The notes under the pieces: generated by a model
What the model was told of the DNA's origin: nothing
Database searches by the model: none
What the model saw: only the letters and a program-made list of their open reading frames with translations
Translations under genes and position numbers: made by a program
Shown here: positions 17,822-41,779 of the stretch, piece after piece
Layout of the letters: every line of letters begins with the position of its first letter
How positions within the stretch are numbered: the stretch's first letter is position 1
NCBI GenBank assembly: GCA_020051845.1
Contig: JAGVQG010000062.1
Location: 1-41,923 of the forward strand
Direction of reading: 5' to 3'
Source of the DNA: an archaeon
GTDB taxonomy: Archaea; Nanobdellota; Nanobdellia; Woesearchaeales; ARS49
DNA length: 41,923 nt

Positions 17822-18015
17822 ATATGACCAACAGCGCCTTCTGAATAAATACGTTGTTCTTTCGTCGGCTATGACGACATACGTATTAAGAGACTGTTGT
17901 GGATATGACTTTTCTGTCCCACTTATATTCTCCAGACCATACATTTCTTTAATAGTATAAAAAGCCTAATAGTGCCTAGTATGACAAAAAGGTCACATAT
18001 ATCACAGTGATAAAC

Positions 18016-18426
18016 ATGAAAGAAGACAAACAATACGTGGAAAAGCCTGGCTACCAGGCGAATAAGCAAGCAAAACCCGGATACAAGGGCAAGGACACAA
18101 AGGCAGAGATGGCAAGACAAGCAACCCCCGCAACCTACAACCTCCGGCCTTCACAGACACCTCCATTGACAGATATCCTGGACAAGTCCCAATACGAGAT
18201 GCCGCCGATGCGGGACATGCAAGCATTCCCGACAATGACTGAATTCATCGCCGCTTTGATGATGAAGACCGTCGAACTCGCACATACATACATGAAACTC
18301 GCGAGCGCGATCGAACAAAGATACGGCGCAATGCAAGGGATGCAGCCAGCGTATGCACACGGCAAAACCCCGGCATACGGCCAGAAGCAGTACGCTGCTC
18401 AATCAAGCAAACAGAACAAAGGGTGA
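18016..18426 (+). CDS. disordered protein opening the NTase/metalloprotease operon
   Basis: A 136-residue protein, mostly low complexity. The N-terminus is rich in Lys, Gly, Tyr and Gln (GYQANKQAKPGYKG), residues about 70-105 form a Met-rich helix (TEFIAALMMKTVELAHTYMK), and the C-terminus is rich in Tyr, Gln, Ala and Gly. No family is recognised. The ATG at 18016 is preferred to the GTG at 18007. A TATA-like TATAAAAAG lies at about 17953-17965. Only five bases separate it from the next gene, so it is the first gene of a four-gene unit ending at 21336. A scaffold or substrate role is possible but speculative. Confidence 0.6.
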   Translation: MKEDKQYVEKPGYQANKQAKPGYKGKDTKAEMARQATPATYNLRPSQTPPLTDILDKSQYEMPPMRDMQAFPTMTEFIAALMMKTVELAHTYMKLASAIEQRYGAMQGMQPAYAHGKTPAYGQKQYAAQSSKQNKG

Positions 18427-18431
18427 AAGAA

Positions 18432-18635
18432 ATGGCAGGAAAGGATGAACAGATCGGATTCCACAAGGGCAGTCTTACGACGCTCGCGAAGGAACGTGAG
18501 GAATTCATGAAGGTGCTCGGCATCGTCGAGCAGCTCATGCAGATGCACATCAAGGCCCTCAAGGACCTTGGTGTCGACCTCGAAGCAGAAGCTAAGAAGA
18601 CACCTGGCAAGAAGAGTCTTGAAGGAGCGCTCTGA
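18432..18635 (+). CDS. small helical protein of the NTase operon
   Basis: A 67-residue, almost entirely helical protein (KEREEFMKVLGIVEQLMQMH, then IKALKDLGVDLEAEAKK) with heptad-like hydrophobic spacing suggesting a coiled coil or helical hairpin. No family is recognised. The ATG at 18432 is preceded by GGGTGAAAGA, a good ribosome binding site overlapping the previous stop. The frame could also start at GTG 18423. It sits between the disordered protein and the metalloprotease-like protein and is probably part of one complex with them. Confidence 0.6.
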   Translation: MAGKDEQIGFHKGSLTTLAKEREEFMKVLGIVEQLMQMHIKALKDLGVDLEAEAKKTPGKKSLEGAL

Positions 18636-18637
18636 AA

Positions 18638-19438
18638 ATGTACGGCTGCGGCGGCTATTGCGGAGGGGGAAGCTCTTACACGGGCAGTTCCTCTTCGCAG
18701 AGCTACGTGATGGCAAGTCCGCTCGAGCAGATGGCGTCTGACGCGACATCTTACTCGACAAGCTCGTCATCGAACTCATCGTCGTACTCAACGCAATCGG
18801 CTTCCGCTTACAGCAATTCGACGACAGGAGTATACGGCAACGCATCGACAGGAATGCACTACTTCGCTCCGCAGGAGACGATGGCAGCGGCTTTCAGCGC
18901 CGACGAATTCCTCGACCCGTTCAGGCCCCCGACGCCTTTTGTCGGAGACGCCGAGACAGTGAGACCTTTTGTCGAGGAAGCGTTCAAACAGCTTATGGGC
19001 ACCGAGCTTCCGCGTGACATCATCATAAGGATCGGCACGACAGAACAGTTGGCGCGTGCATATCCTGGTCAGTGGGATTCGTCAATCGCTGGCTTCGCGC
19101 TCAACAGGGTCGGCTGGGGAACAAGCGAGATATTCGCACGCCACGACAACATGGACAGGCTTTTGCTCACCATCGGCCACGAACTGGGCCACGTGATGAG
19201 CGAGCCGCTTCCAGTCATACACAACGAAGAGGCGAAGGCGTTCGCCTTCAGCCTCGCGTGGATGAAGACTATCAAGGAGAATAATATCGCAGGCATCGGC
19301 CACGTCATCAACCCGATGCCGGCGGCTAACGGCCTGCACGACAAGGCCTTCGGCTTCGTGGCCGACCTTGTCGAGGGCGGCAAGATGGCGATGGACGTGT
19401 TCGCTGAACTGGTCCACAAAGTCATAGCAGTGAGGTAA
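18638..19438 (+). CDS. HExxH metalloprotease-like protein
   Basis: A 266-residue protein without a signal peptide. Residues 1-65 are a low-complexity Gly/Ser/Tyr segment starting MYGCGGYCGGGSS. The rest is a compact domain with a zinc-peptidase motif HELGH at residues 181-185 and, about 12 residues later, NEEAKAFAF, a plausible third-ligand glutamate as in gluzincin-type peptidases. It may therefore be an intracellular zinc protease. It follows the helical gene after two bases, with GGAG upstream, and precedes the NTase gene by five bases. The target could be an operon partner; this is inference. Confidence 0.75.
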   Translation: MYGCGGYCGGGSSYTGSSSSQSYVMASPLEQMASDATSYSTSSSSNSSSYSTQSASAYSNSTTGVYGNASTGMHYFAPQETMAAAFSADEFLDPFRPPTPFVGDAETVRPFVEEAFKQLMGTELPRDIIIRIGTTEQLARAYPGQWDSSIAGFALNRVGWGTSEIFARHDNMDRLLLTIGHELGHVMSEPLPVIHNEEAKAFAFSLAWMKTIKENNIAGIGHVINPMPAANGLHDKAFGFVADLVEGGKMAMDVFAELVHKVIAVR

Positions 19439-19443
19439 TCACC

Positions 19444-21336
19444 ATGGCAGAAAAAAAGAAGAAATCAGAGTCCAAGGAACACCCGAAGGAGAAACAGGAA
19501 TACAAAACTCCAATCAAGGGCCAGACAGAATCCCCTCATATGCCTGCTGGTGTACCCGCGCTCCCTCCTGAAGTCGAGGAGAAGCTCAAGGTCATCAAGG
19601 GCAAGATCGACAAGTTCCAGAAGGAGCTCGTCGGCAAGTTCGACAAGTACATCATGGGCGTTGGGCTATTGCCTCCGCCACAGCCAATCCAAGGCGAACA
19701 GGTCAAACCCGAGCAGAAGGACGAGGTCCATCTACTCATCCTGATAGACGACAGCGACAGCACGAAGATGACCAAGGATGAGCTGAAGGACAAGCTCACG
19801 ACAGTCATCAACAATGTCGCAAAGGAGATCGAGCCGAATTTCGTGCCGAACGTCCTTATTCTCAGCGAAGTCTGGCAGTCGTGCTACGACGGAAAGAACG
19901 ATCTTCTGCAGATGATCGCGCTGTGCGCTCCTGTCTTCGACCGTGGAATGCTCAGCGCCATAAAGATCGCCGAAGTCCACAAGCAGATGGTCCTCAAGAA
20001 GTTCGAGAAGTACATCGTGGCCTACGTGCTCGCCGGCTCGCTCGTGCAGGGCAAGGCCACTCCCGAGTCCGACGTCGACGTCTGGATAGTCATAGACGAC
20101 ACCGACGTTAAGAAGATGACCCGCGCCGAGCTCAAGGACAAACTGCGCAGCATAATCATCGGCATGGGCTTCGAAGCGGCCCAGATGACAGGCATCCAGA
20201 ACAAGATCAACATCCAGGTCTACATCCTGACCGACTTCTGGGACATGATGCGCGAGGCGAACCCTATCGCCTTCACCTTCCTGCGTGACGGCATCCCGTT
20301 CTACGACCGCGGAATCTTCATGCCATGGAAGCAGCTGCTCAGGATGGGCAAGATCAAGCCAAGCACCGAAGCCATCGACATCTACATGAGCTCGGGCGAG
20401 CAGGGTCTTGACCGCGTGCGCCTCAAGCTGAAGGACATCGGAATGGAGGATGTATTCTGGAGCATACTCACGCCTTCGCAGGCCGCTCTGATGCTCTACG
20501 GATTGCCTCCGCCCACTCCGAAGGAGACTCCTGAGGTGATGCGTGAGATCTTCGTCAAACGCGAGAAGCTCCTGACAGAAGCCGACGTGAAGATCCTGGA
20601 GGACACCATAAAGGTCCGCAAGGACATCGAGCACGGCACAAAGAAGGAGATGACTGGTAAGGAAGTTGATGAGTTGGTGGAGAACGCCGACAAGTACCTC
20701 AAGCGCATCAAGCGCCTCTTCACGCAGATCGAGAGCATCGTCGAGAAGGAGACCTTGGTCCACCTCTACGACGGAGTGATCAGCGCTGTGCGCGACGCGT
20801 TGCGTCTTGCGGGCGAGCGCGAAGTGAGCGAGGATGACATGCTTGAGACGTTCGAGAAGCGTCTGATAAAGACAGGCAAGCTGCCGCATTCGCTGATCAA
20901 GCCGCTCGACAATCTCATCGAGGCCAAGAAGGGCTATGACAAGGGCAAGCTCACAAGGACAGAGGTCGATGAGGCCCGCAAGGCAGCGACAGAACTGCTG
21001 CGCAGCATCATCGAGTTCGTGCAACGATCACGCGGCCGAGAGCTTGAGCGCGCGAAGGTGCGCGTGAAGTACGGCAACAAGTTCGCCGAACTCACCCTGC
21101 TCGAAGGCCAGGCCTTCATCGTGCACGACCTTGACGAGGAGCCGAAGCGTCTTAGCAAGGCCAAGGTCATGCCTGACGGCTCACTTGGAACACTTGGCGA
21201 CACGACCCAGGAAGAGTTCGAGAAGGCGCTCGCGAACGCGGTCGTCCCTCCACGGACCTTCATCCGCGAGAAGCTCTTCGAGAACCTCAAGAAGATCTTC
21301 GGCAGCGATGTCGAAGTGCTCGTGAATTTGGGCTAG
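19444..21336 (+). CDS. duplicated nucleotidyltransferase-like protein with helical tail
   Basis: A 630-residue soluble protein. After a Lys/Glu-rich leader come two tandem copies of a small NTase-like domain. The second (about residues 185-310) keeps the polymerase-beta motif: G198-S199, then the acidic pair D210 and D212 (ESDVDVWIVID). The first (about residues 60-175) aligns with it over KFDKYI, LILIDDSDSTKMTKDELKDKL and VFDRG but has lost GS and the acidic pair, so it looks inactive. Residues 360-540 are helical and include R392-x4-H397, a spacing seen in HEPN RNases. A beta-rich end closes the protein. It may modify a nucleotide, tRNA or protein. Confidence 0.75.
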   Translation: MAEKKKKSESKEHPKEKQEYKTPIKGQTESPHMPAGVPALPPEVEEKLKVIKGKIDKFQKELVGKFDKYIMGVGLLPPPQPIQGEQVKPEQKDEVHLLILIDDSDSTKMTKDELKDKLTTVINNVAKEIEPNFVPNVLILSEVWQSCYDGKNDLLQMIALCAPVFDRGMLSAIKIAEVHKQMVLKKFEKYIVAYVLAGSLVQGKATPESDVDVWIVIDDTDVKKMTRAELKDKLRSIIIGMGFEAAQMTGIQNKINIQVYILTDFWDMMREANPIAFTFLRDGIPFYDRGIFMPWKQLLRMGKIKPSTEAIDIYMSSGEQGLDRVRLKLKDIGMEDVFWSILTPSQAALMLYGLPPPTPKETPEVMREIFVKREKLLTEADVKILEDTIKVRKDIEHGTKKEMTGKEVDELVENADKYLKRIKRLFTQIESIVEKETLVHLYDGVISAVRDALRLAGEREVSEDDMLETFEKRLIKTGKLPHSLIKPLDNLIEAKKGYDKGKLTRTEVDEARKAATELLRSIIEFVQRSRGRELERAKVRVKYGNKFAELTLLEGQAFIVHDLDEEPKRLSKAKVMPDGSLGTLGDTTQEEFEKALANAVVPPRTFIREKLFENLKKIFGSDVEVLVNLG

Positions 21337-22885: not shown

Positions 22886-23905
22886 ATGCGTCGCGGTCAG
22901 ATCACGCTGTTCATAATTCTTGGTCTTGTGTTCGTGATTATAGTCTCTTTGACGCTTTACTTGATAGATGTGCAGCAGCGCGAGCAGGAGAACGCCGCTC
23001 TAAGCGCGCTTGATCGAGCGCCGATCCTGAAGGATGATTGCGAGGACGGCACCAAGAACGGCCAGTGCGGGAAGGACAGGCCTTTGCAGTGCAGGAACGG
23101 CGTCATGAAGCCGATGTGCAGCGACTGCGGCTGTCCGACGAACGAGTTGTGCAACGTGGATGGGACTTGCAAAGGCAGGGCTGAGCAGGCGAAGTCCAAC
23201 TTCACTTTCTACATCTTGCCGGTCGGCTACGCTCCTGACGACCGCGAGTTCCTTCTGCGCGCAGAGGTCCTGAAAGCAGGGATGTTCGCGACCATGCCGT
23301 TCACTGACGAAAATTTCGTGATAGTCGAGAACACCTATCCTGATGGAGATTGCCTCACTATCACGCGCGGTTTCGACAGGCACGTGCAGGAGTGGTTGCA
23401 GAAGCAGACAGGCCATGGTTTGTCTGGCGTGCGTTTCGAGGATGGGATCCCGCTCTACAGCTACAGGATAATCGGCATCAGCGAACAGCCCCAGGATGAG
23501 GCGCGCTGCGGCTGCGCGCATTCGTTGATGTACAGCCCCAATGTCTTTGTCGGTGGTTCATCGTGCGGGTTCTCGCCGCATGTTGTGTTGCACGAACTAG
23601 GCCACACGATAGGGTTGTGCGACGAGTACGACACTTGCGTCTATGACGAGACCAACAAGTACATGAGCCAGGGCTTCGGCCATCCCTGCCTCAACGGAAA
23701 ACCAACTGCGGACAACAGCGACTGCACGGATATCTGCTGCAGCAAGGACGCTGCCTGCTGCGATGGCAGATTCGCGGACAAGAAGACGGATGGCTTCTTC
23801 AACATCATGGGCAGCGGCGACGTGCCGCCTTCGCGCAGACTCAACAGCCAGACCCAGGCTGTCTTCTGGGTGTACTTCTGCGGCAAGTTCGGGGTGTGCC
23901 CATGA
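22886..23905 (+). CDS. membrane-anchored HExxHxxGxxDE metalloprotease-like protein
   Basis: A 339-residue protein with an N-terminal anchor starting MRRGQITLFIILGLVFVI, so the rest should face outward. A Cys-rich segment (residues about 50-95) precedes the catalytic region. The zinc motif is HELGHTIGLCDE, with H236, E237, H240, G243 and D246, a metzincin-type arrangement with Asp in the third ligand place. Many further cysteines suggest disulfides. The N-terminus resembles that of the protein at 39836. GAGGT lies five bases before the ATG, and a TATA-like CATATAAAAG is about 38 bases upstream. The next gene overlaps by ATGA. Confidence 0.85.
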   Translation: MRRGQITLFIILGLVFVIIVSLTLYLIDVQQREQENAALSALDRAPILKDDCEDGTKNGQCGKDRPLQCRNGVMKPMCSDCGCPTNELCNVDGTCKGRAEQAKSNFTFYILPVGYAPDDREFLLRAEVLKAGMFATMPFTDENFVIVENTYPDGDCLTITRGFDRHVQEWLQKQTGHGLSGVRFEDGIPLYSYRIIGISEQPQDEARCGCAHSLMYSPNVFVGGSSCGFSPHVVLHELGHTIGLCDEYDTCVYDETNKYMSQGFGHPCLNGKPTADNSDCTDICCSKDAACCDGRFADKKTDGFFNIMGSGDVPPSRRLNSQTQAVFWVYFCGKFGVCP

Positions 23906-31619: not shown

Positions 31620-32264
31620 TCAGACCAGCCCGTACTTGACGAGCTTCCTATGTAATGTCTCGTAGCGTAGCCCTATCTTGCGTGAGACAGCTACGGGCGA
31701 TGGTCCGTGCTCGGCAAGGGCTTTCTCAAGGTACTTCCGCTCCCAGACAAGCTCGGCCTGCTCAAGTGTCGGAAGCTCCAGGGGCAGTTCTTTGGCTATG
31801 TTCTTGCCGAGCTTGGGCGCGTGCTCATAGAACGCCTGGTATTTCTCCGGAGCGAGCGATTCCTTGAACTGTATCGTGCTCTCCTGGATTATGGACTGCA
31901 CCTCTCCCTGGACGTAGAATTCCTGACGATGCAACTCCTTGCGGAACCGGTCAGCTCCCACGCCGAACTCCTTCATCAACCTGTGCACGCTGCGGCGATC
32001 GATGCCTGATATGCGCGCGACCTGGGCGATATTGCCGAAGTGCAGCTGCGCAAGGCGGGCAAGATAGTGTTTCTTGAACGCGAGCTTCGCTTTCTTGAAC
32101 GGTATCGATATGTCGACAGGTATCTCGAGCAGTGGGCTGCGCTTGAGCTTGTCCGAGACCTCTGAAGTGAGCTCGTCGATGCGGACGCCGAGATAGGTGC
32201 GCATGGCATCATCGAGCATGGGCTTGACTTTCTTCTCGACGACAGAATCGAGGGATTCCATCAT
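31620..32264 (-). CDS. protein with two Fis-type helix-turn-helix motifs
   Basis: A 214-residue putative DNA-binding protein. One motif lies near residues 65-105 (HYLARLAQLHFGNIAQVARI, then SGIDRRSVHRLMKEFGV) and the second at the C-terminus (KYLEKALAEHGPSPVAVSRK, then IGLRYETLHRKLVKYGLV). Both follow the pattern of the Fis/NtrC C-terminal HTH: Leu-rich helix, GN or GP, VA, GI or GL, a recognition helix, and an ending YG or FG. Archaea lack sigma-54, so the partner is not an ordinary NtrC system. ATGA overlap with the upstream gene makes it the last gene of the giant-protein operon. The exact start (32264 or 32261) is uncertain. Confidence 0.7.
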   Translation of the reverse strand: MMESLDSVVEKKVKPMLDDAMRTYLGVRIDELTSEVSDKLKRSPLLEIPVDISIPFKKAKLAFKKHYLARLAQLHFGNIAQVARISGIDRRSVHRLMKEFGVGADRFRKELHRQEFYVQGEVQSIIQESTIQFKESLAPEKYQAFYEHAPKLGKNIAKELPLELPTLEQAELVWERKYLEKALAEHGPSPVAVSRKIGLRYETLHRKLVKYGLV

Positions 32265-33077: not shown

Positions 33078-36000
33078 CTATACCAGGACTGTCGTGACAG
33101 TGTCCTTCACGGTGAGCTGGAGCTTCAGTTCCGGCGTTGAATACAGCTTTGCGCCTTTTTCATCGGTGACATCGAATGTTATCGAATACGATCCTGCCGT
33201 TGCCGTGAATGCGTAGCTGACGTCGAGCTGGTCTTGACCTTCTTTCGTGGACCTGATCGGCGTGATCTTTCCTCCAGGATTGGGGATCGACGCGACATTG
33301 ACCAAAGCACCTTTTGGTCCTAGAAGCGTCGCCTTGACAGTGACTAGTCCCGGGGACATCTTGAAGGTCTTCGTCAACAATCCTGCTTGTGTGGAGCCCG
33401 CTTCCTTGCAGATGAAACATATCGGTTCAACACCTTGTGGTTCGACTGTGAGTCTCAATATCCTTGAATCGTAGCCGCCTGCCGTCGGTGTCGGCGCCGT
33501 CGTCACAGGTGTTGTCGTCGTCTTCGGCACCGGCTTCTGTCCAGCGGTGTTTCTGCACACCCTGTCCTTTGTGGCGTCATCGTCCGGATATACGCAGAAG
33601 TTTCCGGATTGTCCTAGGCCGCAGTTGACCAGGTCTTTCCGCGTCGGGTCAGCGGCCAGTTTCCTGTTGGCCTCATCGAGTCCTGCTTTGTTTCCGCAAT
33701 AACAGGCGATCAATGCCTTGTTGAGGTCAAGTGTGGGGTCGTCCGGGCATGCTTGTACGCTGCCGCCTTTGCCGCCGACAGAATCAGCGCATACTATCTG
33801 GAATGGTATGGTGGCTTTCTGGATGTCTCCTGTGCTCGGGTCGACTGTGGGCTGGTTCGGGTTGAACTCATATGATGATCCGCCTGCGACCGGCGTGCTG
33901 TCAAACATCGAGAAGGTGACTGTCCAGTTGGCAGGATTGGTGGCGAACTGTTCACATATGGTCGATGTCGTGCCTATCTGCTGCGCGACGTTGCGGCCGA
34001 TGTAGTACTCCGCGGCAGGGTCTGTGAGCTTGAAGTTCTGCCGTATGGTAAGCTCTATTGAGTCTCCATGGACCCGTTTGGAATCGTGACCGACGATGGT
34101 GTAGGTCGCCAGTGGCTTGTTGTCTGTCTTCTTCCACCATCCCCACTCACCCACCTTCGCCCTTGGATCAGTCCTGTTCATGTAATCGGTGACTGGCAGT
34201 GGATCCGTGCTTGCTGCCTTGAAGACCTCGACATTGTAGGTCGATAACGCTTCAGTGGGCGTCACCACGAGGACGAGCGCTTCTTGTATCTCCTTGATTG
34301 TACGGATATCAGAGACGAATGTGGCGCTCTGGCCTTTCCCTGCTGTGGCGCCTGTCGATAGTGTCTGAACAAAAGAGAAGCTTTCCGATCTTGGACTCCA
34401 GGTCGTGGTCACGACGTTCTTCGTCTCGCCATTGGCCTCGACCTTCAGGTGGCTGTTGCTCGTGATCTCGCCGGCCACGGCCTTGAAAGGTCCAAGGACT
34501 GTCTGTCCTTGCTGGTTCTTTATCTCATAGTCGACCCATTTGGTGTATGGGCATGTGCCGCTGACGCAGCCGCTCTCTTGCTGCAGGTTCGACGGGTATT
34601 GGAGATTGACCGAGTACTCGAAGACAAGTGGTTTGCCTGTCGTGAACGCTGCCTGGTTGTCAGGATATAACGCTCTTGGCGTGTCGCTGAAGCGCGCTCC
34701 TGTGTAGTCGCCGATGCCGATGTTGCACCTGTACACCAATGCCAATGGATCGAACTGGCAGATGTTCGGCGGGCTGTCACCGACCCTGTGGATAGGCACT
34801 TCCTTCTTGTCCCTGATCACCTCGCCGCTCGAGGGGTTGACCGATTCCCAGCTCAATATGGCCGTGTCATAGCGCACTCCGCTCGCAGGATCAGCGCCTT
34901 GTATGGTGTAGAACACCTCGGTGTTGAGGATGTCGTTCTTCTTCAGCATGCCGCTACCCATCTCTGGCGTGCCGACGAGGATGACCTGTTCCCTGCGTCC
35001 GAAGCAGTCGCACTTTCCGCTGACGAATCCATCCTTTGGCTCGCAGCGCAGCGAATTGCTGCACTTGAGCTCGAGGGAATAGCGTAGTTCGTCTCCTGCT
35101 ATCAATCCGACGCCGAAGTGGTAGGTGAATGTGGGCAATCCTGATGGCCGCGTCACAGGGTTGTAGCTGATGAAGCGCCTGTCTGCAGGGTAGAGGAATC
35201 CCTGGCTCTTGATCGGTATTTCATTGACTGTCTGCGCGTACATGCCGCTCATGTCAAGGTCCCAGGTTCCTGTGAATGCGAAGGCGCATACGCTGTGGAG
35301 CAGCTTCCGCTCGACGAACATGCTTCTCCACAAGGCAGTGTCTCCGTAGCGTGAGTTGATGGAGCGCTGCATGTCGCCTCCTGCGGCCGAAAGCGAGCCG
35401 AGGACGTCACCTATGCCGCCGCGTCCGCTGAACTGCGTGCCTGATCCTGGCGTGCTGTACTTCTGCGTGAAGCAGGATAGCACGTCGAAGAGCATGTCGC
35501 AGACATATTGTGACAGCACTGCCTGGCATACTCCTGCCGATGCGTCGCCCGTTATCTTCACCGTCTGGAAGCAGTTGCGCACAGCCCCGAGGATGTTCTT
35601 CCAGAATGTCAGGTAGCTTGTGACGGCAGGCAGGCACATGCACTGCGTGCTTCGTACGACGCCGTCGCGGTCAGGCCGGACGATGTAGGTCTTGTCGGTT
35701 ATGCCTAGCTTCGACCTTATGTTGAGGTATATGGTCCTCGCGCGGGTGCTCTCGCAAATACCTGTTTCCTGCGCATTGACGCACAATGCCTTTGCGAATC
35801 CTGGCGGCATCTCGCCTGACTTGACAAGCACTTGCGTCTGGGTGCCATCTGCATTGGTTATCGTGTTCTGGCCTTCCATGAAGTACATGGACAGGTCTTC
35901 TTGTCCGTCGGTGTCTGGCACGAAGTCAAGTTCGGCGTTTAGGTAGAACTGGCCTTTGTTTTCCGTTGTCTTGTCCTTGCGTAACTCTTCGGTTTTCGCC

Positions 36001-39000
36001 GTCTCCTTCGCGATCTGCGCGGACTTGTCCTGGCTTACGCGCTGCCTTGCGATGCGCTCTGCGATGTAGCCGCGCGCGATGACATACTGGTTGTTGTCAG
36101 CTCCGACAGGCTCGATACGCACGTAGATCTCGTTGTTCTTGGGAGCCGCGAGTTCCTTGCGCTTGAGCTCATTATATGTCAGTCCTGTCGCGATGTCATC
36201 GCCAACAGGCATGCCGCTTCCTGGCTCGCAGAATCCTGCGACAGCGTTGAATAGGCTCTTGCACTGTATTTGAGTGGGATTTGTCGGGTTCTTGGAAGCC
36301 GCCTCCTGCAGGTCTGGAATCCTGTTGGCGTTCTGGGCCGCGAGGCACGCGCTTTCCTTTATCTCATCGAATGTCTCAAGGACGCCAGGTATTCCGCAGG
36401 CGCTGCCCCATTCCTGGTAGTACTCGTAGCCGCAGCATTCCGGATTCGACGGGTGCAGTCCTGCGCAGTTGATCTTTGTCGCGCCTGCTCCGATGACAGT
36501 CGTGCCCGCTGTGGCAACAGATGCCACTGAACTGCCTTCAGTGACCGGCTTGTCCTTCTTGTGCGTCAGGTAGTCAAGGTATACTTCCTTGACACCTTTC
36601 TCTGCGTAAGAGACCGATAATGTCTGATCTATCTTGAAATCCTTGCCCGCACCCTGAGCGGCAAGTATGGCTGCCTCGTTGGCGTTGACTGGTCCTGTCT
36701 TAGCAACCGCCACGGTAGAAGTTGCGGTGGTTGTTGTTGCGGTCGCAGCCGGCACTGAGGTTACCGTCGCAGGCGTAGCCGCAGGCGTCGCAGGCATCAC
36801 CTTGCCCCAAACCGGCTGTTTTTTGTCGTCCAATGACGTGACCTTGAATGCCAAGTCCGGAAGTGAGATTCCTGAGTAGCCTGTTCCGAGCGTGGCTCCT
36901 CCCTGTCCTTTGAATGAGCAGCTGCTGCCCGTATACAAGAGTCCTTGTACATTGTTGGGCACTGCGGCGTACGCGAAGTCAGGCACTCCTGGCCCGAGCT
37001 TCACCTGCCGCGGCGGCGTCTTCTGGTTCTCCTTGATGTATGTCTGCACTGTCGGAGCGCTTGGGCACGCGACACGGTCGCAGACGACGCGCATCTTCTG
37101 CTCGAGCGACTTGCGCCTGGAGATCGCGTCCTGGCATTTCTTGCAGGCAGCATAGGCGCCTGCGCGGTCCTGCGCCGGTTGCGTTACACCTGCGCCTCCT
37201 GACGTCACACCAGGCACCTTGATCGCGCCCGAAGCGTCCTTGAACACCGACTCACACATGCCTATCTCTGCCACGTCGCGTATGTTGTTGCCTTTGCCCA
37301 GCACGCTCTGCAAGCCTGCGATTATGCCGCCGTCCTGTATCGAGGCGAACTCGCAGCTCATGCGTTCTGAGAAGAACATGCCGAAGAGCACGCCGTTCAT
37401 GGCCATGCAGCCGTAGGTGGTGTAGGTGCCGACAGTTATCATCGGGTCAAGCACCTTGTCGATGATCTCGGTGACGCCGTCTATGAACTCGATGCTGTTC
37501 TCCAGGAACTTCTTGGGTATGTTCTGACTGAGCGGTATCGCGCGGTCTATCTGCAATTCCACGTCGACGCAAGTCCTTTGGGAGACGTCGTTGAGTAGGA
37601 AGTTCTCTGCTGTTATCTGCGAGCCAGGATCGCCGCTGTACATCTTCGGGATCTTCTCCTGTGCCTTGACCTCTACCTCAAGCATCAAGCGCACGCAGCC
37701 GAATCCCGGCACTTTGCACTCGCCGAGCCTGTGCTTTGAAAGCTCGACTTCCTGGCCTCCGATCGTCTTGTTTGATGACGGCGCGTTGGCTGGCTGCTGT
37801 GGCTGGAATGTGAGCTGCACATAGCCGCTTGTCGGATTGCGCGGGTCGCGCAGGAAATCGACGCGGACCATATCGTGGTCATACTTCTTCTGCTCGGTGT
37901 TCGACAAAGTGAGCGGCCTTATGGTGACTGTGCCCTGGCGCGCGAGATCGCGTCCTCCACGATAGCTGGCGTTTAGCGAGAATCCTGCCTGCTGCACTCC
38001 CTGGATGACAAGACGCGGCGTGACCACATCTGGCATGGGCTTGCCGAGCGTTATCTGGAATGTGGAGCCGTAGCCGCAGAGCGCGTATGTCACAGGCACA
38101 GGCCCGACAGTCACCTTTCTTCCTGCGAGGTCGACTGCTTCGAGCTTGACATTGTTTTGCCAGCCCTCTGCCATTTCGCCTGTCACGGATATCGGGTTCT
38201 TCGTCTTCTTCAGCTTGGCGTCGCGCGAAAGCTCTATCTGCTTGCTGAAGCCGCCGTTCTTGTTGGTGAGCACCGCTATCGGCTTGTCATCATTGATGTA
38301 GATGAAGACCGTTCCCTGCTTGTTGAGCTTGCCGCGCACCTCGACCAGCGGCCGGTATGTCGGGCTGAGCTGGTTCAGGTTCTCCTCGAGGAATTGCGGA
38401 GGCACGGTGTCGACGGTGGTCATGTTGCTGATCCGCACGACGTTGCCGCCTTTGTCGACGAACTCGAGCACGACCCTGTTCTCGCCTTCCGCTAGCTGGA
38501 TGGAGAAGCTGAACGTTCCAGAAGCCTTGAGAGATTGCTTGCCTGCTCCGCACGTCAGGGGGATCTCTTGCGGCGTTATGTTCATGCGCAAGCCTTCAGG
38601 GTTCGTCTGTACCGTCGTTGTCTCGGACAAACTGCCTTCCTGACAGCCCTTGCCTATGCCCGATACGCGGTACTTGTAGACCTCGCCTGCGCTGACGCTG
38701 TCGGTGTAGCGGACGTCGTTGACTATGGCGACGCGCACGCCGTTGCGGTATACCGCGTATCGCGTGGCGTCGTTCTTCGTCCATTGGAGGTCCACGCTGT
38801 TGCCTGTGACCTTGGTTGCCTGCATTTCAGTGACGCGTTCTGGCGCAGCGCCTGTCTGCTCTGTGCCATAGTTTATCGTGACAGGCTCGCTCACCGAGCC
38901 GCTCACGGTAAGACTTGTCGAGGCCGCGAATTCGGGTATGCCCTGTGTGAAGGTCACGAGAGGTGGCACGTTGTCGACGACCACCTTGCCGTTCTTCTCC

Positions 39001-39839
39001 AGCATCGCTCCTGCGGAGTCGCGCGCGCTGACGATGAAGTTCGATTCTGTGCCTTCTACCGCGACGTCCTGGAACAGGAAACCGCCGTCTGATCCGGCGA
39101 TCATCGCGCGCACGGCCTTGCCATTGACGCTCAACCGCACTTCAGCGCCAGGGACGGTGTTGCCTTTGACGTCGACCTTGCCGCTGCGGGTGAATTCGGG
39201 TATGCTGACGTTGAGCGGCATGCCTGATCCTGAACTGAAGAAGCCGGACGTGGCGTTGACGCAGTTGTCGCTCGCGTCGCAGCCGCCGACTACCAGCACA
39301 TAGGCCGTGTTCTTCGTGACCTCAAGCTGCATTTGGTGGTTCAGAGCCAGGTTTTCGTCCGAGACTTGCTTGGATGGTGTGCGCTCGCCGTATGAGACCA
39401 GGGTGGTGGATGGTTTGTCGGTCATCCAGCGGACCATGGCCGTCGTCTCGGCGCTCTCGACGGTGATATTGGTCACGCGTGGCGGCGTGTTGTCCGCCTT
39501 CGCGCGCGTCGATATGAAATAATAATCGCCGTTGTTGTCGTCTATCTTCGGGAATTCGCCTGGCGCTATCGAGACGATGTTGTAGTAATATTTCGTGTTC
39601 GGCTGGAGGCGTTCTATGAGTATCGAGTGCGACTTGGTCTGCGTGTTGTTCTGCACCTGCAGTGTGGGCGGGGTCGAAGTGCCGTAGTTGATCGCTCCGA
39701 TCGACGCGTTGTCGGTCGTCCATCTGACGACGAATGAATCTTCCGTGGCCGAAGCAGGGTTGGGATCGTGGAAAACCATCAGGCCGTTCGCGCTGGCGAC
39801 AGCCAGGATGATCGCGATTACCAACAGCGCGCGTCTCAT
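33078..39839 (-). CDS. giant secreted multidomain protein with FN3-like modules
   Basis: A 2253-residue exported protein. A signal peptide (MRRALLVIAIILAVASANG) is followed by two fibronectin type III-like domains (about residues 20-205, with FVVRWTTDN, NTKYYYNIVS and TAMVRWMTD), an Ig-like part, and a third FN3-like domain (about 330-410). Long unassigned beta-rich and Cys-rich regions follow (about 45 cysteines in pairs and clusters), a Thr/Ala/Val spacer near residue 1030, and a closing Ig-like domain ending TVTTVLV. No C-terminal anchor is seen. The ATG at 39839 forms an ATGA overlap with the upstream gene; ATG 39845 is also possible. Likely a cell-surface or attachment protein. Confidence 0.85.
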   Translation of the reverse strand: MRRALLVIAIILAVASANGLMVFHDPNPASATEDSFVVRWTTDNASIGAINYGTSTPPTLQVQNNTQTKSHSILIERLQPNTKYYYNIVSIAPGEFPKIDDNNGDYYFISTRAKADNTPPRVTNITVESAETTAMVRWMTDKPSTTLVSYGERTPSKQVSDENLALNHQMQLEVTKNTAYVLVVGGCDASDNCVNATSGFFSSGSGMPLNVSIPEFTRSGKVDVKGNTVPGAEVRLSVNGKAVRAMIAGSDGGFLFQDVAVEGTESNFIVSARDSAGAMLEKNGKVVVDNVPPLVTFTQGIPEFAASTSLTVSGSVSEPVTINYGTEQTGAAPERVTEMQATKVTGNSVDLQWTKNDATRYAVYRNGVRVAIVNDVRYTDSVSAGEVYKYRVSGIGKGCQEGSLSETTTVQTNPEGLRMNITPQEIPLTCGAGKQSLKASGTFSFSIQLAEGENRVVLEFVDKGGNVVRISNMTTVDTVPPQFLEENLNQLSPTYRPLVEVRGKLNKQGTVFIYINDDKPIAVLTNKNGGFSKQIELSRDAKLKKTKNPISVTGEMAEGWQNNVKLEAVDLAGRKVTVGPVPVTYALCGYGSTFQITLGKPMPDVVTPRLVIQGVQQAGFSLNASYRGGRDLARQGTVTIRPLTLSNTEQKKYDHDMVRVDFLRDPRNPTSGYVQLTFQPQQPANAPSSNKTIGGQEVELSKHRLGECKVPGFGCVRLMLEVEVKAQEKIPKMYSGDPGSQITAENFLLNDVSQRTCVDVELQIDRAIPLSQNIPKKFLENSIEFIDGVTEIIDKVLDPMITVGTYTTYGCMAMNGVLFGMFFSERMSCEFASIQDGGIIAGLQSVLGKGNNIRDVAEIGMCESVFKDASGAIKVPGVTSGGAGVTQPAQDRAGAYAACKKCQDAISRRKSLEQKMRVVCDRVACPSAPTVQTYIKENQKTPPRQVKLGPGVPDFAYAAVPNNVQGLLYTGSSCSFKGQGGATLGTGYSGISLPDLAFKVTSLDDKKQPVWGKVMPATPAATPATVTSVPAATATTTTATSTVAVAKTGPVNANEAAILAAQGAGKDFKIDQTLSVSYAEKGVKEVYLDYLTHKKDKPVTEGSSVASVATAGTTVIGAGATKINCAGLHPSNPECCGYEYYQEWGSACGIPGVLETFDEIKESACLAAQNANRIPDLQEAASKNPTNPTQIQCKSLFNAVAGFCEPGSGMPVGDDIATGLTYNELKRKELAAPKNNEIYVRIEPVGADNNQYVIARGYIAERIARQRVSQDKSAQIAKETAKTEELRKDKTTENKGQFYLNAELDFVPDTDGQEDLSMYFMEGQNTITNADGTQTQVLVKSGEMPPGFAKALCVNAQETGICESTRARTIYLNIRSKLGITDKTYIVRPDRDGVVRSTQCMCLPAVTSYLTFWKNILGAVRNCFQTVKITGDASAGVCQAVLSQYVCDMLFDVLSCFTQKYSTPGSGTQFSGRGGIGDVLGSLSAAGGDMQRSINSRYGDTALWRSMFVERKLLHSVCAFAFTGTWDLDMSGMYAQTVNEIPIKSQGFLYPADRRFISYNPVTRPSGLPTFTYHFGVGLIAGDELRYSLELKCSNSLRCEPKDGFVSGKCDCFGRREQVILVGTPEMGSGMLKKNDILNTEVFYTIQGADPASGVRYDTAILSWESVNPSSGEVIRDKKEVPIHRVGDSPPNICQFDPLALVYRCNIGIGDYTGARFSDTPRALYPDNQAAFTTGKPLVFEYSVNLQYPSNLQQESGCVSGTCPYTKWVDYEIKNQQGQTVLGPFKAVAGEITSNSHLKVEANGETKNVVTTTWSPRSESFSFVQTLSTGATAGKGQSATFVSDIRTIKEIQEALVLVVTPTEALSTYNVEVFKAASTDPLPVTDYMNRTDPRAKVGEWGWWKKTDNKPLATYTIVGHDSKRVHGDSIELTIRQNFKLTDPAAEYYIGRNVAQQIGTTSTICEQFATNPANWTVTFSMFDSTPVAGGSSYEFNPNQPTVDPSTGDIQKATIPFQIVCADSVGGKGGSVQACPDDPTLDLNKALIACYCGNKAGLDEANRKLAADPTRKDLVNCGLGQSGNFCVYPDDDATKDRVCRNTAGQKPVPKTTTTPVTTAPTPTAGGYDSRILRLTVEPQGVEPICFICKEAGSTQAGLLTKTFKMSPGLVTVKATLLGPKGALVNVASIPNPGGKITPIRSTKEGQDQLDVSYAFTATAGSYSITFDVTDEKGAKLYSTPELKLQLTVKDTVTTVLV

Positions 39840-41779
39840 GGCCATGCCTCTGGCGCGAGCCGCGCCTGGTAATCAGTGCCATAGAGATATGTCGTCAGCT
39901 TGGATTGATAATCATCTGTGAACCCGACAGGCCGTCCTTCGAGGACGTGGAAGGTCATGGTTCCTGATGTGCTGTCTATCGGCAACGCTTCCTGCACGAA
40001 TCCTCCTGTGAGGCCGCCGAACTGGGACAGGAGCAGGTTGACGTCATAGGTGCCTTCTCCGTCGAGCAATTGTATCGTGTCATTGGCAGGGTATAGCACG
40101 AACTGGTCGAGCGATCCGTCCTTCAGCGAGATGCGGATGCTCACGTTCTCGACGCTGCCGAGCTGCAAAGGCTCTCCCCATATGCCTGATGAGAGCTCAT
40201 AGGGATGCTTGAGCACCTTGATCTTGACGTCGCGCAATTCCTTGAGCTGCAGGGTTAGCTTGTCGCCCTCTAGCTGGCTTGTCGCCGTGAGGAATCCGCT
40301 CTTGCTTGCGACTATCGTCGGTCTCTGGCAGGCGACCGGCAGTTGCGTGCGCAGCCTGTATGCTCCTTCGTCGGCCGTCGATGATCCTAGTGGGCATTCC
40401 CTGCCTACGCAGCGGAGCGTGAACTGGACATCGTCAAGCTCTGAGCCGATCGTGTCTCCTGGCATCACGCCCTCGGCGCGCAGGTCGACCTGCTCGTCGC
40501 CGAGCTCGTCGCAGAACGCCGTGCCGATGTTGAATCCGCGGAAGGAGCGTATGCCGAAGGTCTGCCTGTTGGGGCTGTTGGTCTTGATGAGCACCGGGAA
40601 TGCCATCTGGAAGGTGGCGCCGGTCCCAGTGAACGCCTTGTCGTCGCGGACAGTGAACAGCACAGGATATACCACGTCATAGGTTATGTGGTAGGTGTTG
40701 ATGCACATGAAGTTCAGGTATCCTGCCCCTCCACGGCTGACGCGGCTTTCGAGCACGCCGTTGTCGTTCGGGTTGCCTGTGAGCGCCATGCCCCAACGGG
40801 GCTGGTAACTGAACGCGGCGCGCAGGTCTTTGGCACTGACCCCTGTGTCCCAGAAAAGGTGCAGGTACTCGTAGGAATCGTCAGGTATATCCTTGGGCAT
40901 GCGGCCTGCGTTGACGTCAGCCATACCATATCTCTTGAGGTTCTCGTAGACTCGTTCCGGCTCGTTGAACGCGGGATAGTTCGTGTTCTTGATGCGTATC
41001 GTCGGCAGGTTCGTGCGCAGCACTCCCTGCACCTCGGTCTTGACTTCGCCCAGCGTCCAACGTTTGGGCGTGCAGTCGAAGGTGAGCGCGTCCATGGGCA
41101 CGCCAGGATCTATGGCCATCAGGTCTATGGTGGCGTTCTCGAGAAGCAGGTCCCTGTTCTCCGCGACCAGCGTGGCGTTGGCGAGCTCCCACATGCGGAG
41201 CAGCTTTACGTCGAGGAAGGTGTTGAAGTCAGAGTAGTCGACCTGCTTGCCCGCGGATACCCACTGCAGGGGATAGTTCATGCGCACGACGACGTTCTCC
41301 TTGGCGAGCGTGACATTGACTGTCATGTTTCCCTTGGGTTCGATGGCGAACTGGTCGCGCAATGAGGCGAAACCGTCGATGCACGCAGGCATCCCCGCGA
41401 TTATCTCCTCGCCGATTTGGCGTTCCATGAAACCTATCGTCGGCGTGCGGTCCTCGCCGTCGTAATACCAGAGAGGCACTTTCAGCGCGGCGTCCTCGTC
41501 CATCGCGAGGTATGCGGTCGGGTTGTGCATGATTTCAGGCGGGAAGTCGAGGTATCCGCCTTGCGCGCCCAGCCGTCTGATGGCGTCTTGGCCCAGTTGC
41601 TTTGCGCAGTCGTTGATTACGTCGTAGACCGGCCTCACTTCAGCAGGCACGAGCGGCAGCGCATCACGCTGCGGTACGTTGAACGTGAGGAAGAGCACTA
41701 GACTGGTGACTACTAGCAGCAGCAGTCCTACCATTATGAAGACCGTTATCTGGGCCCCTCTGCCAACCCCTCTTTTCAT
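39836..41779 (-). CDS. membrane-anchored surface protein heading the giant-protein operon
   Basis: A 647-residue protein with an N-terminal anchor (VGRGAQITVFIMVGLLLLVV) and a large exterior part. RGAQIT followed by a hydrophobic stretch resembles the start of the protease-like protein at 22886 and recalls class III (prepilin-type) signals, although no +5 Glu is present. The exterior is beta-rich, with scattered cysteines and several N-x-S/T sequons (for example NMTVNVT, NATLV). No named domain is recognised. It is transcribed first, from a TATA-like GTATTTAAAT box 24-33 bases upstream, and overlaps the giant gene by ATGA. The pair probably functions together on the cell surface. Confidence 0.8.
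   Translation of the reverse strand: MKRGVGRGAQITVFIMVGLLLLVVTSLVLFLTFNVPQRDALPLVPAEVRPVYDVINDCAKQLGQDAIRRLGAQGGYLDFPPEIMHNPTAYLAMDEDAALKVPLWYYDGEDRTPTIGFMERQIGEEIIAGMPACIDGFASLRDQFAIEPKGNMTVNVTLAKENVVVRMNYPLQWVSAGKQVDYSDFNTFLDVKLLRMWELANATLVAENRDLLLENATIDLMAIDPGVPMDALTFDCTPKRWTLGEVKTEVQGVLRTNLPTIRIKNTNYPAFNEPERVYENLKRYGMADVNAGRMPKDIPDDSYEYLHLFWDTGVSAKDLRAAFSYQPRWGMALTGNPNDNGVLESRVSRGGAGYLNFMCINTYHITYDVVYPVLFTVRDDKAFTGTGATFQMAFPVLIKTNSPNRQTFGIRSFRGFNIGTAFCDELGDEQVDLRAEGVMPGDTIGSELDDVQFTLRCVGRECPLGSSTADEGAYRLRTQLPVACQRPTIVASKSGFLTATSQLEGDKLTLQLKELRDVKIKVLKHPYELSSGIWGEPLQLGSVENVSIRISLKDGSLDQFVLYPANDTIQLLDGEGTYDVNLLLSQFGGLTGGFVQEALPIDSTSGTMTFHVLEGRPVGFTDDYQSKLTTYLYGTDYQARLAPEAWP

Follow-up and report, generated by a model that had tools for sequence, protein, structure and literature searches.

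Do four almost touching genes of a woesearchaeal archaeon form one working unit, and if so, what would that unit do? The question is raised by positions 18016-21336 of a 41,923-nucleotide stretch of DNA, called the window here, which is contig JAGVQG010000062.1 (our contig C24) of the 1.33 Mb genome GCA_020051845.1 (Nanobdellota, Woesearchaeales, ARS49). A first-pass annotation, made by a model from the letters of the window, had described an intracellular modification-and-cleavage system of four members. We found that the operon is real, conserved and regulated, and we read it as a module of Woesearchaeales that works inside the cell, is controlled at transcription and combines proteolysis with nucleotidylation. 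To this reading as a whole we give a probability of about 0.4; the identity of the module and its common control are, taken by themselves, quite probable.

All four open reading frames (ORFs) lie on the forward strand, and the ORF listing gave intergenic gaps of 5, 2 and 5 bases, in line with the two to five bases described earlier. Gene 1 (18016..18426; 136 amino acids (aa) from its ATG) encodes a Tyr/Gln-rich low-complexity protein, gene 2 (18432..18635) a 67-aa helical protein that we call HELX, gene 3 (18638..19438) a gluzincin-like zinc protease of 266 aa with a Ser/Tyr/Gly-rich leader, MPRO, and gene 4 (19444..21336) a 630-aa nucleotidyltransferase (NTase), NTL. The four products are those of the earlier description, and, as it had claimed of export signals, no obvious hydrophobic export segment stands at the start of any of them when read from the sequence (no signal predictor was run).

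Conservation was followed in a close sample of 57 genomes (the window's own and relatives), 26 of them from one Woesearchaeales family, and in a phylum sample of 371 genomes; the named relatives are nearly all metagenome-assembled genomes of Candidatus Woesearchaeota or Nanoarchaeota, and genes outside the window were called with our own ORF/4-mer script. Of the 22 family genomes that carry MPRO, 20 show HELX, MPRO and NTL one after the other (a count made by eye from tables and including L102, a copy with broken reading frames), so the conserved gene order is more than chance; the contigs of the other two genomes stop after MPRO. MPRO is missing from the family genomes G001, G013, G014 and G022, and the last three also lack HELX and the long NTL, a joint absence of the trio. 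The same order recurs in another family (L072, L315), where HELX-NTL is found in L374.

Gene 1 does not share this history. It is the first gene behind the paired operator sites treated below; none of the other 56 genomes searched holds a homologue (1/57, its own), and we rejected it as a conserved operon member. The disordered protein is a lineage-specific passenger. Genes 2, 3 and 4 of the annotated four-member set thus stood as a unit while gene 1 dropped out as an orphan, and what survives of the modification-and-cleavage proposal is an intracellular protease and an NTase with the exact MntA signature, conserved together. In L097, L272, L351 and L073 an extra small gene also sits between the operator and HELX or the protease.

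An NTL match was found in all 57 close genomes, in some to a short paralogue only, together with HELX in 51/57 and MPRO in 30/57; across the phylum sample, the long NTL (E up to 1e-60) was found in 338/371 genomes, HELX in 260/371 and MPRO in 77/371. For linkage outside the family we chose 47 protease loci, of which L328 and L337 were dropped for lack of a protease call. Within 5 kb of MPRO in the remaining 45, an NTase-HEPN gene occurred in 13, HELX in 6 and either in 15, against a chance expectation of about one locus by our own estimate for genomes of ~1.2 Mb. The first-pass annotation had named scattering in relatives as the sign that would count against a joint function; outside the family the genes do lie mostly apart, but the linkage still exceeds expectation. 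HELX and NTL also stand 11-15 bp apart with no protease between them in L064 and L198, and ~750 bp apart in L179, which suggests that the protease was lost from a former trio there. In other families (L062, L163, L167, L224 and others), a CBS-domain protein comes after NTL, as do tandem copies of a protein of ~170-200 aa that has no Pfam family above cut-off.

In the promoter of the operon, a TATA-like box is flanked by two TATGAC-N6-GTCACA palindromes. The upstream candidate operator O1, TATGACTTTTCTGTCCCA (17904..17921, + strand), matches TRTGAC-N6-GTCNCA exactly and forms a phased pair with the downstream candidate O2, TATGACAAAAAGGTCACA (17980..17997, +), which agrees at 12/12 consensus positions; the TATA-like element between them (17949..17961, +) was placed by a script scan at offset 27 of the inter-site segment. 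The exact pattern TRTGAC-N6-GTCNCA occurs just three times in the whole 1.33 Mb genome, twice at this promoter, and with one mismatch allowed the genome count is about that of the control. Palindromes of the form TRTGAC-N6-GTCAYA lie within 150 nt upstream of the family HELX genes, and in an exact search of the 57 genomes, 14 of the 20 sites in family genomes were at the operon promoter (our own tally by coordinates). Sites agreeing at 11 or more of the 12 positions precede 16/25 HELX operons, 5/43 MPRO genes standing alone, 9/130 NTL genes and 3/19 genes for the regulator HTH8 introduced below, compared with 33/2462 other genes, several of which open one of these operons, as gene 1 does here, or diverge from it. 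The non-family HELX group with sites includes copies on family contigs (at least L164, L198, L223 and L235), and its clear outsiders are only L116 and L322. Single sites, as upstream of the short NTase paralogue (1/28) and of most NTL genes that have one, are weak evidence.

Among 42 distinct site pairs within 130 bp, 12 are spaced at 53-54 bp, one at 64 bp, 15 at 73-76 bp and 14 elsewhere, and the two main spacings correspond to ~5 and ~7 turns of the helix. Of the 28 distinct phased pairs, 24 enclose a TATA-like element. In most pairs this element starts at offset 4-5 for a spacing of 53-54 bp and at 26-28 for one of 74-76 bp, so that its distance to the downstream site stays constant at ~31-32 bp. 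Because of this constant distance and the usual placement of the archaeal TATA box upstream of the transcription start, the downstream site would lie near that start. Both the consensus and the phased spacings were set with the upstream regions already in view, so the p-values given here are descriptive. A perfect palindrome, TATCACAGTGATA, stands at 18000-18012 directly before gene 1; we kept it out of the mechanism because it does not appear in the upstream regions listed for other operons. On another contig of the same genome (C9; L398:7744-7840), three or four operator-like sites lie upstream of two minus-strand genes for coiled-coil proteins of 203 and 271 aa that look HTH-like by eye and have homologues near the protease in L267, L330, L335 and L346; this cluster is a possible second member of the regulon.

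Which protein, then, would bind these sites? The window encodes HTH8, a regulator of 214 aa (31620..32264, minus strand; profile match 31626-32261, E 7.5e-67), in which two Fis-type helix-turn-helix (HTH) motifs are visible by inspection and whose gene overlaps the end of the preceding one. In the homologue L072:5942-6586, Pfam HTH_8 scored above cut-off (48 bits vs 22, E 1e-12). HTH8 was found in 35/57 genomes (E up to 1e-10), namely in 27/30 with MPRO vs 8/27 without it (Fisher 2.8e-6), and outside the family in 7/8 vs 4/23. All six operator-bearing genomes outside the family possess it, compared with 11/31 overall there (p 0.0006), although for three of the six the sites counted include one at HTH8 itself; the numbers entered in the Fisher and hypergeometric tests were counted by eye in lists. 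An HTH_8 gene lies between or next to operon genes in L270, L321, L325, L188, L226, L227, L256, L265 and others, in a sample that is biased since the loci were picked around other operon genes. On balance, this co-occurrence tips the choice towards HTH8 as the binder of the paired palindromes.

TyrR is itself an HTH_8 protein. The operator here resembles the TyrR box, TGTAAA-N6-TTTACA with an essential G-N14-C, which is an 18-bp palindrome used in pairs (PMC4374768): it is also a paired 18-bp palindrome with a 6-bp spacer, and its TGTGAC form keeps the G-N14-C. However, its arm letters differ, its promoter is archaeal with the sites flanking the TATA box, and no TyrR ligand or ATPase domain was seen in HTH8.

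As for the protease, MPRO found no family in Pfam, NCBIfam or PDB sequence searches, which covered the window protein and, in Pfam, 20 members. A structural model built on a five-sequence alignment gave mostly high confidence for a core at residues 88-260 and a predicted local distance difference test (pLDDT) score below 50 for residues 1-87. In the VIA fold comparison, the core matched oligoendopeptidase F (2h1n; Z 10.8, root-mean-square deviation (rmsd) 4.2, 165 residues aligned) in a match list made up mostly of zinc peptidases; Foldseek alone gave the core no E below 0.001. The HExGH motif is present in 68/68 distinct copies (a frame-broken fragment without the motif, from L102, was dropped) and is followed 15-16 residues further on by a Glu motif in 65/68; in the window protein these are HELGH at 181-185 and EE at 197-198. 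With HExxH, the downstream Glu and a modelled zincin fold, MPRO is a predicted small gluzincin-like zinc protease.

The leader of MPRO, disordered over residues ~1-87 here and defined for the survey as up to 100 residues before HExxH, stands out in composition. Leaders average 10.2% Tyr and 17.9% Ser, compared with 3.6% and 6.0% in all called proteins, and 65/67 of those with at least 30 residues hold at least 6% Tyr. In a 20-sequence alignment Y2 is invariant and Y7 is kept in at least 90%; beyond these two positions the composition is conserved and the sequence is not, which in our own judgement would be unusual in prokaryotes. As the Tyr-rich candidate for modification we regard this leader, not the small proteins.

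The NTase domain of NTL was recognised by Pfam (NTP_transf_2, E 8.5e-6; Polbeta, E 4.7e-6), with generic NTase similarity only in NCBIfam; a PDB sequence search with NTL alone gave nothing, and one with its profile gave weak HEPN/MNT matches. The AlphaFold model, built on an alignment of 43 sequences (mean pLDDT 79), has a tandem of NTase-like units, one at ~70-187 without a catalytic motif in the aligned sequence and one at 191-300 with GSX10DXD at 198-212, then a HEPN domain (304-432) with RX4H at 392-397, coiled helices and a C-terminal beta domain. NTL is, as modelled, a pseudo-NTase, NTase and HEPN fusion. Its HEPN domain matched AF0298 (Z 15.2, rmsd 2.4, 120 residues aligned), and further fold matches were MNT 8xeo (Z 10.3), HepT 7ae9 (Z 12.0), kanamycin and streptomycin NTases (Z ~10) and HalB (Z 9.8). 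Among 118 distinct NTL sequences, G198, D210 and D212 are kept in all and S199 in 115, R392 in 107 and H397 in 110.

These motifs and folds are those of the type VII toxin-antitoxin pair HepT/MntA, in which the acceptor Tyr of the HepT motif RX4HXY receives adenosine monophosphate (AMP) (PMC7641770). NTL differs from that pair in being a single chain, enlarged by a pseudo-NTase and C-terminal domains, rather than two adjacent genes, in being near-universal where HepT/MntA is patchy, and in having no acceptor Tyr after RX4H: position 399, the HepT acceptor position, is T, E, D, K or S in 103/118 sequences, and Tyr is outside the five commonest residues. With an intact donor motif but an incomplete AMP-receiving one, the sequence suggests that the acceptor acts in trans. 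Fused MNT-HEPN proteins usually lack the RNase residues and became protein-modifying regulators (PMC3710099), whereas NTL mostly keeps RX4H. GlnE (3k7d; Z 9.2, rmsd 7.7 over 280 residues) likewise joins tandem nucleotidyltransferase and helical units and modifies a protein; the resemblance is by fold alone, NTL has only one intact NTase active site, and no glutamine synthetase context was seen. A short NTase-HEPN paralogue is encoded in the window's genome (G000:C55:26439-27134, 267 aa as called) and also at L112; 22 of its 28 distinct copies keep the HEPN His, the Arg of RX4H is outside the five commonest residues, and its gene is frequently near TYW3 and HTH8.

HELX is helical by inspection, and G8, F9, H10, G12, L14, T16, L17, E20, R21 and other positions are invariant among 22 sequences, giving the motif GFHxGxLxTLxxERxE. 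A PDB sequence search with it returned no useful match, and its Pfam matches (tRNA_NucTran2_2, HTH_11, RIH and others), weak and inconsistent among members, were set aside as chance. HELX was called in 45 loci outside the family (L264 gave no call); in 30 of them, a gene for DUF371, a PUA protein that we take to be Tma20-like, an RsmF-type PUA protein or aIF5B lies within six genes of it.

Two of the three conserved genes connect to families already in print. Work by Makarova and colleagues lists an MNT-HEPN fusion (cls.004259, NEQ050), DPANN-specific, unusually conserved and in housekeeping context, and a DPANN-specific alpha-helical protein, NEQ484, also in housekeeping context, among a few DPANN-specific families ranked as priority unknowns (PMC6393860). 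NTL is a phylum-wide MNT-HEPN protein of the kind flagged there and a candidate equivalent of cls.004259, with the short paralogue as the alternative; HELX may be the NEQ484 cluster. No tandem pseudo-NTase, protease operon or operator is described in the available parts of that paper, which was the sole archaeal work among the matches listed for NEQ484/NEQ050, and nothing on the operon genes was found in the available parts of the DPANN family paper PMC8204110. In the literature searched, from which most subscription papers fell outside, we found nothing on Woesearchaeales that combines them with a nucleotidyltransferase and HEPN, or an operon with a metalloprotease, and no earlier description of the protease family, the operon, the operator pair or the HTH8 link. 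The annotation's statement that it knew of no described system with this gene set agrees with our searches, none of which matched one. It had not anticipated the phylum-wide MNT-HEPN nature of the NTase, the leader as the Tyr-rich candidate or the conserved double operator; the parts are of known kinds.

In the mechanism that we propose, a regulator, most likely HTH8, would bind, on one face of the DNA, the two palindromes that flank the TATA box and by looping or blocking most likely repress the operon. NTL would be a domesticated MNT-HEPN fusion that has lost the cis acceptor Tyr of HepT, so that nucleotide transfer would take place in trans. Its likeliest acceptor would be the Tyr-rich disordered MPRO leader, in which case nucleotidylation would switch or localise the protease; that NTL modifies the leader is doubtful. 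HELX would serve as a helical adaptor, probably tied to translation. A fully closed loop, with NTL nucleotidylating Tyr residues of a disordered, prion-like leader and the protease in turn cleaving the HTH8 that loops DNA around the TATA box, is quite improbable.

Several observations weigh against this proposal. Neither an NTase-HEPN gene nor HELX lies within 5 kb of the protease in 30/45 outside-family loci, and NTL and HELX often occur without the protease in many families, so neither needs it. HELX outside the family is usually found among translation genes, mostly without the paired operator. HTH8 lies ~10 kb from the operon in the window, with no operator site found upstream of it, and the NTase strand at 255-263 keeps no third catalytic acid. 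Moreover, the data used to test the operator include those from which it was first recognised, and the genomes are related, so their counts are not independent.

The co-occurrence of protease and HTH8 fits equally well a switch of the IrrE/DdrO kind, in which the protease would cleave HTH8 (or HELX) on a signal and so derepress its own operon, NTL being a co-regulated effector and the protease not being nucleotidylated. As in IrrE/DdrO and ImmA/ImmR, an intracellular HExxH protease is here linked at the gene level with an operator and an HTH regulator; the protease adjoins HTH8 in L270 and L321, the operator precedes outside-family protease genes more often than other genes (5/43 vs 33/2462), and IrrE is reported to cleave and inactivate DdrO. 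However, the IrrE/ImmA Pfam family gave no match to the window MPRO at E up to 1 or to 20 members at E up to 0.1 (IrrE/ImmA is also not among the VIA fold rows, an absence that excludes nothing), the regulator is of HTH_8 type and not of the XRE type of such switches, and the NTase partner and the Tyr/Ser-rich leader, for which such a switch has no role, set the operon apart. We keep this switch as a less probable option. The neighbours of HELX point to translation instead: the targets of NTL and HELX, both near-core genes, might be tRNA, rRNA or ribosomes, which NTL might reach with the RX4H that most copies keep, and the protease would be a quality-control partner recruited in some families. 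The 30/45 translation-gene loci and the recurrence of TYW3 beside the short NTase paralogue agree with this, but within the family HELX has left that context, its genes outside the family mostly lack the operator, and fused HEPN domains are usually inactive (PMC3710099); we consider it unlikely.

It is rather unlikely that these are merely independent housekeeping genes under a shared promoter, without a joint mechanism. Such an account would explain why the protease stands apart from the other genes in 30/45 outside-family loci and why two of the three genes occur without it in most genomes, but it sits poorly with the way the genes have come together again in several families and are missing together from three family genomes. 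A toxin-antitoxin or anti-virus defence module is very improbable: the MNT and HEPN folds do match MntA/HepT (Z 10-12), and PADLOC, otherwise limited to generic MNT models, gave weak PDC-S09 matches to the NTase (best E 8e-6), yet NTL is near-universal and chromosomal, its MNT and HEPN domains are fused, and no relatives of the protease or HELX were found in viral contigs.

These results connect two phylum-wide proteins, an MNT-HEPN enzyme and a helical one, with a new family of zinc proteases, a compact promoter signature and a candidate regulator, and this makes their function directly testable with purified proteins and short DNA. If true, the helically phased operator pair flanking a TATA box would be a clear model of archaeal promoter control.

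Elsewhere in the window, a minus-strand ORF of 2255 aa (33078-39845) lies upstream of the gene that precedes HTH8. The proteins encoded at 22886-23905 and 39836-41779 share similar N-terminal membrane segments (GQITLFIILGL and AQITVFIMVGL), and the former has an HExxH motif and weak M6 similarity.

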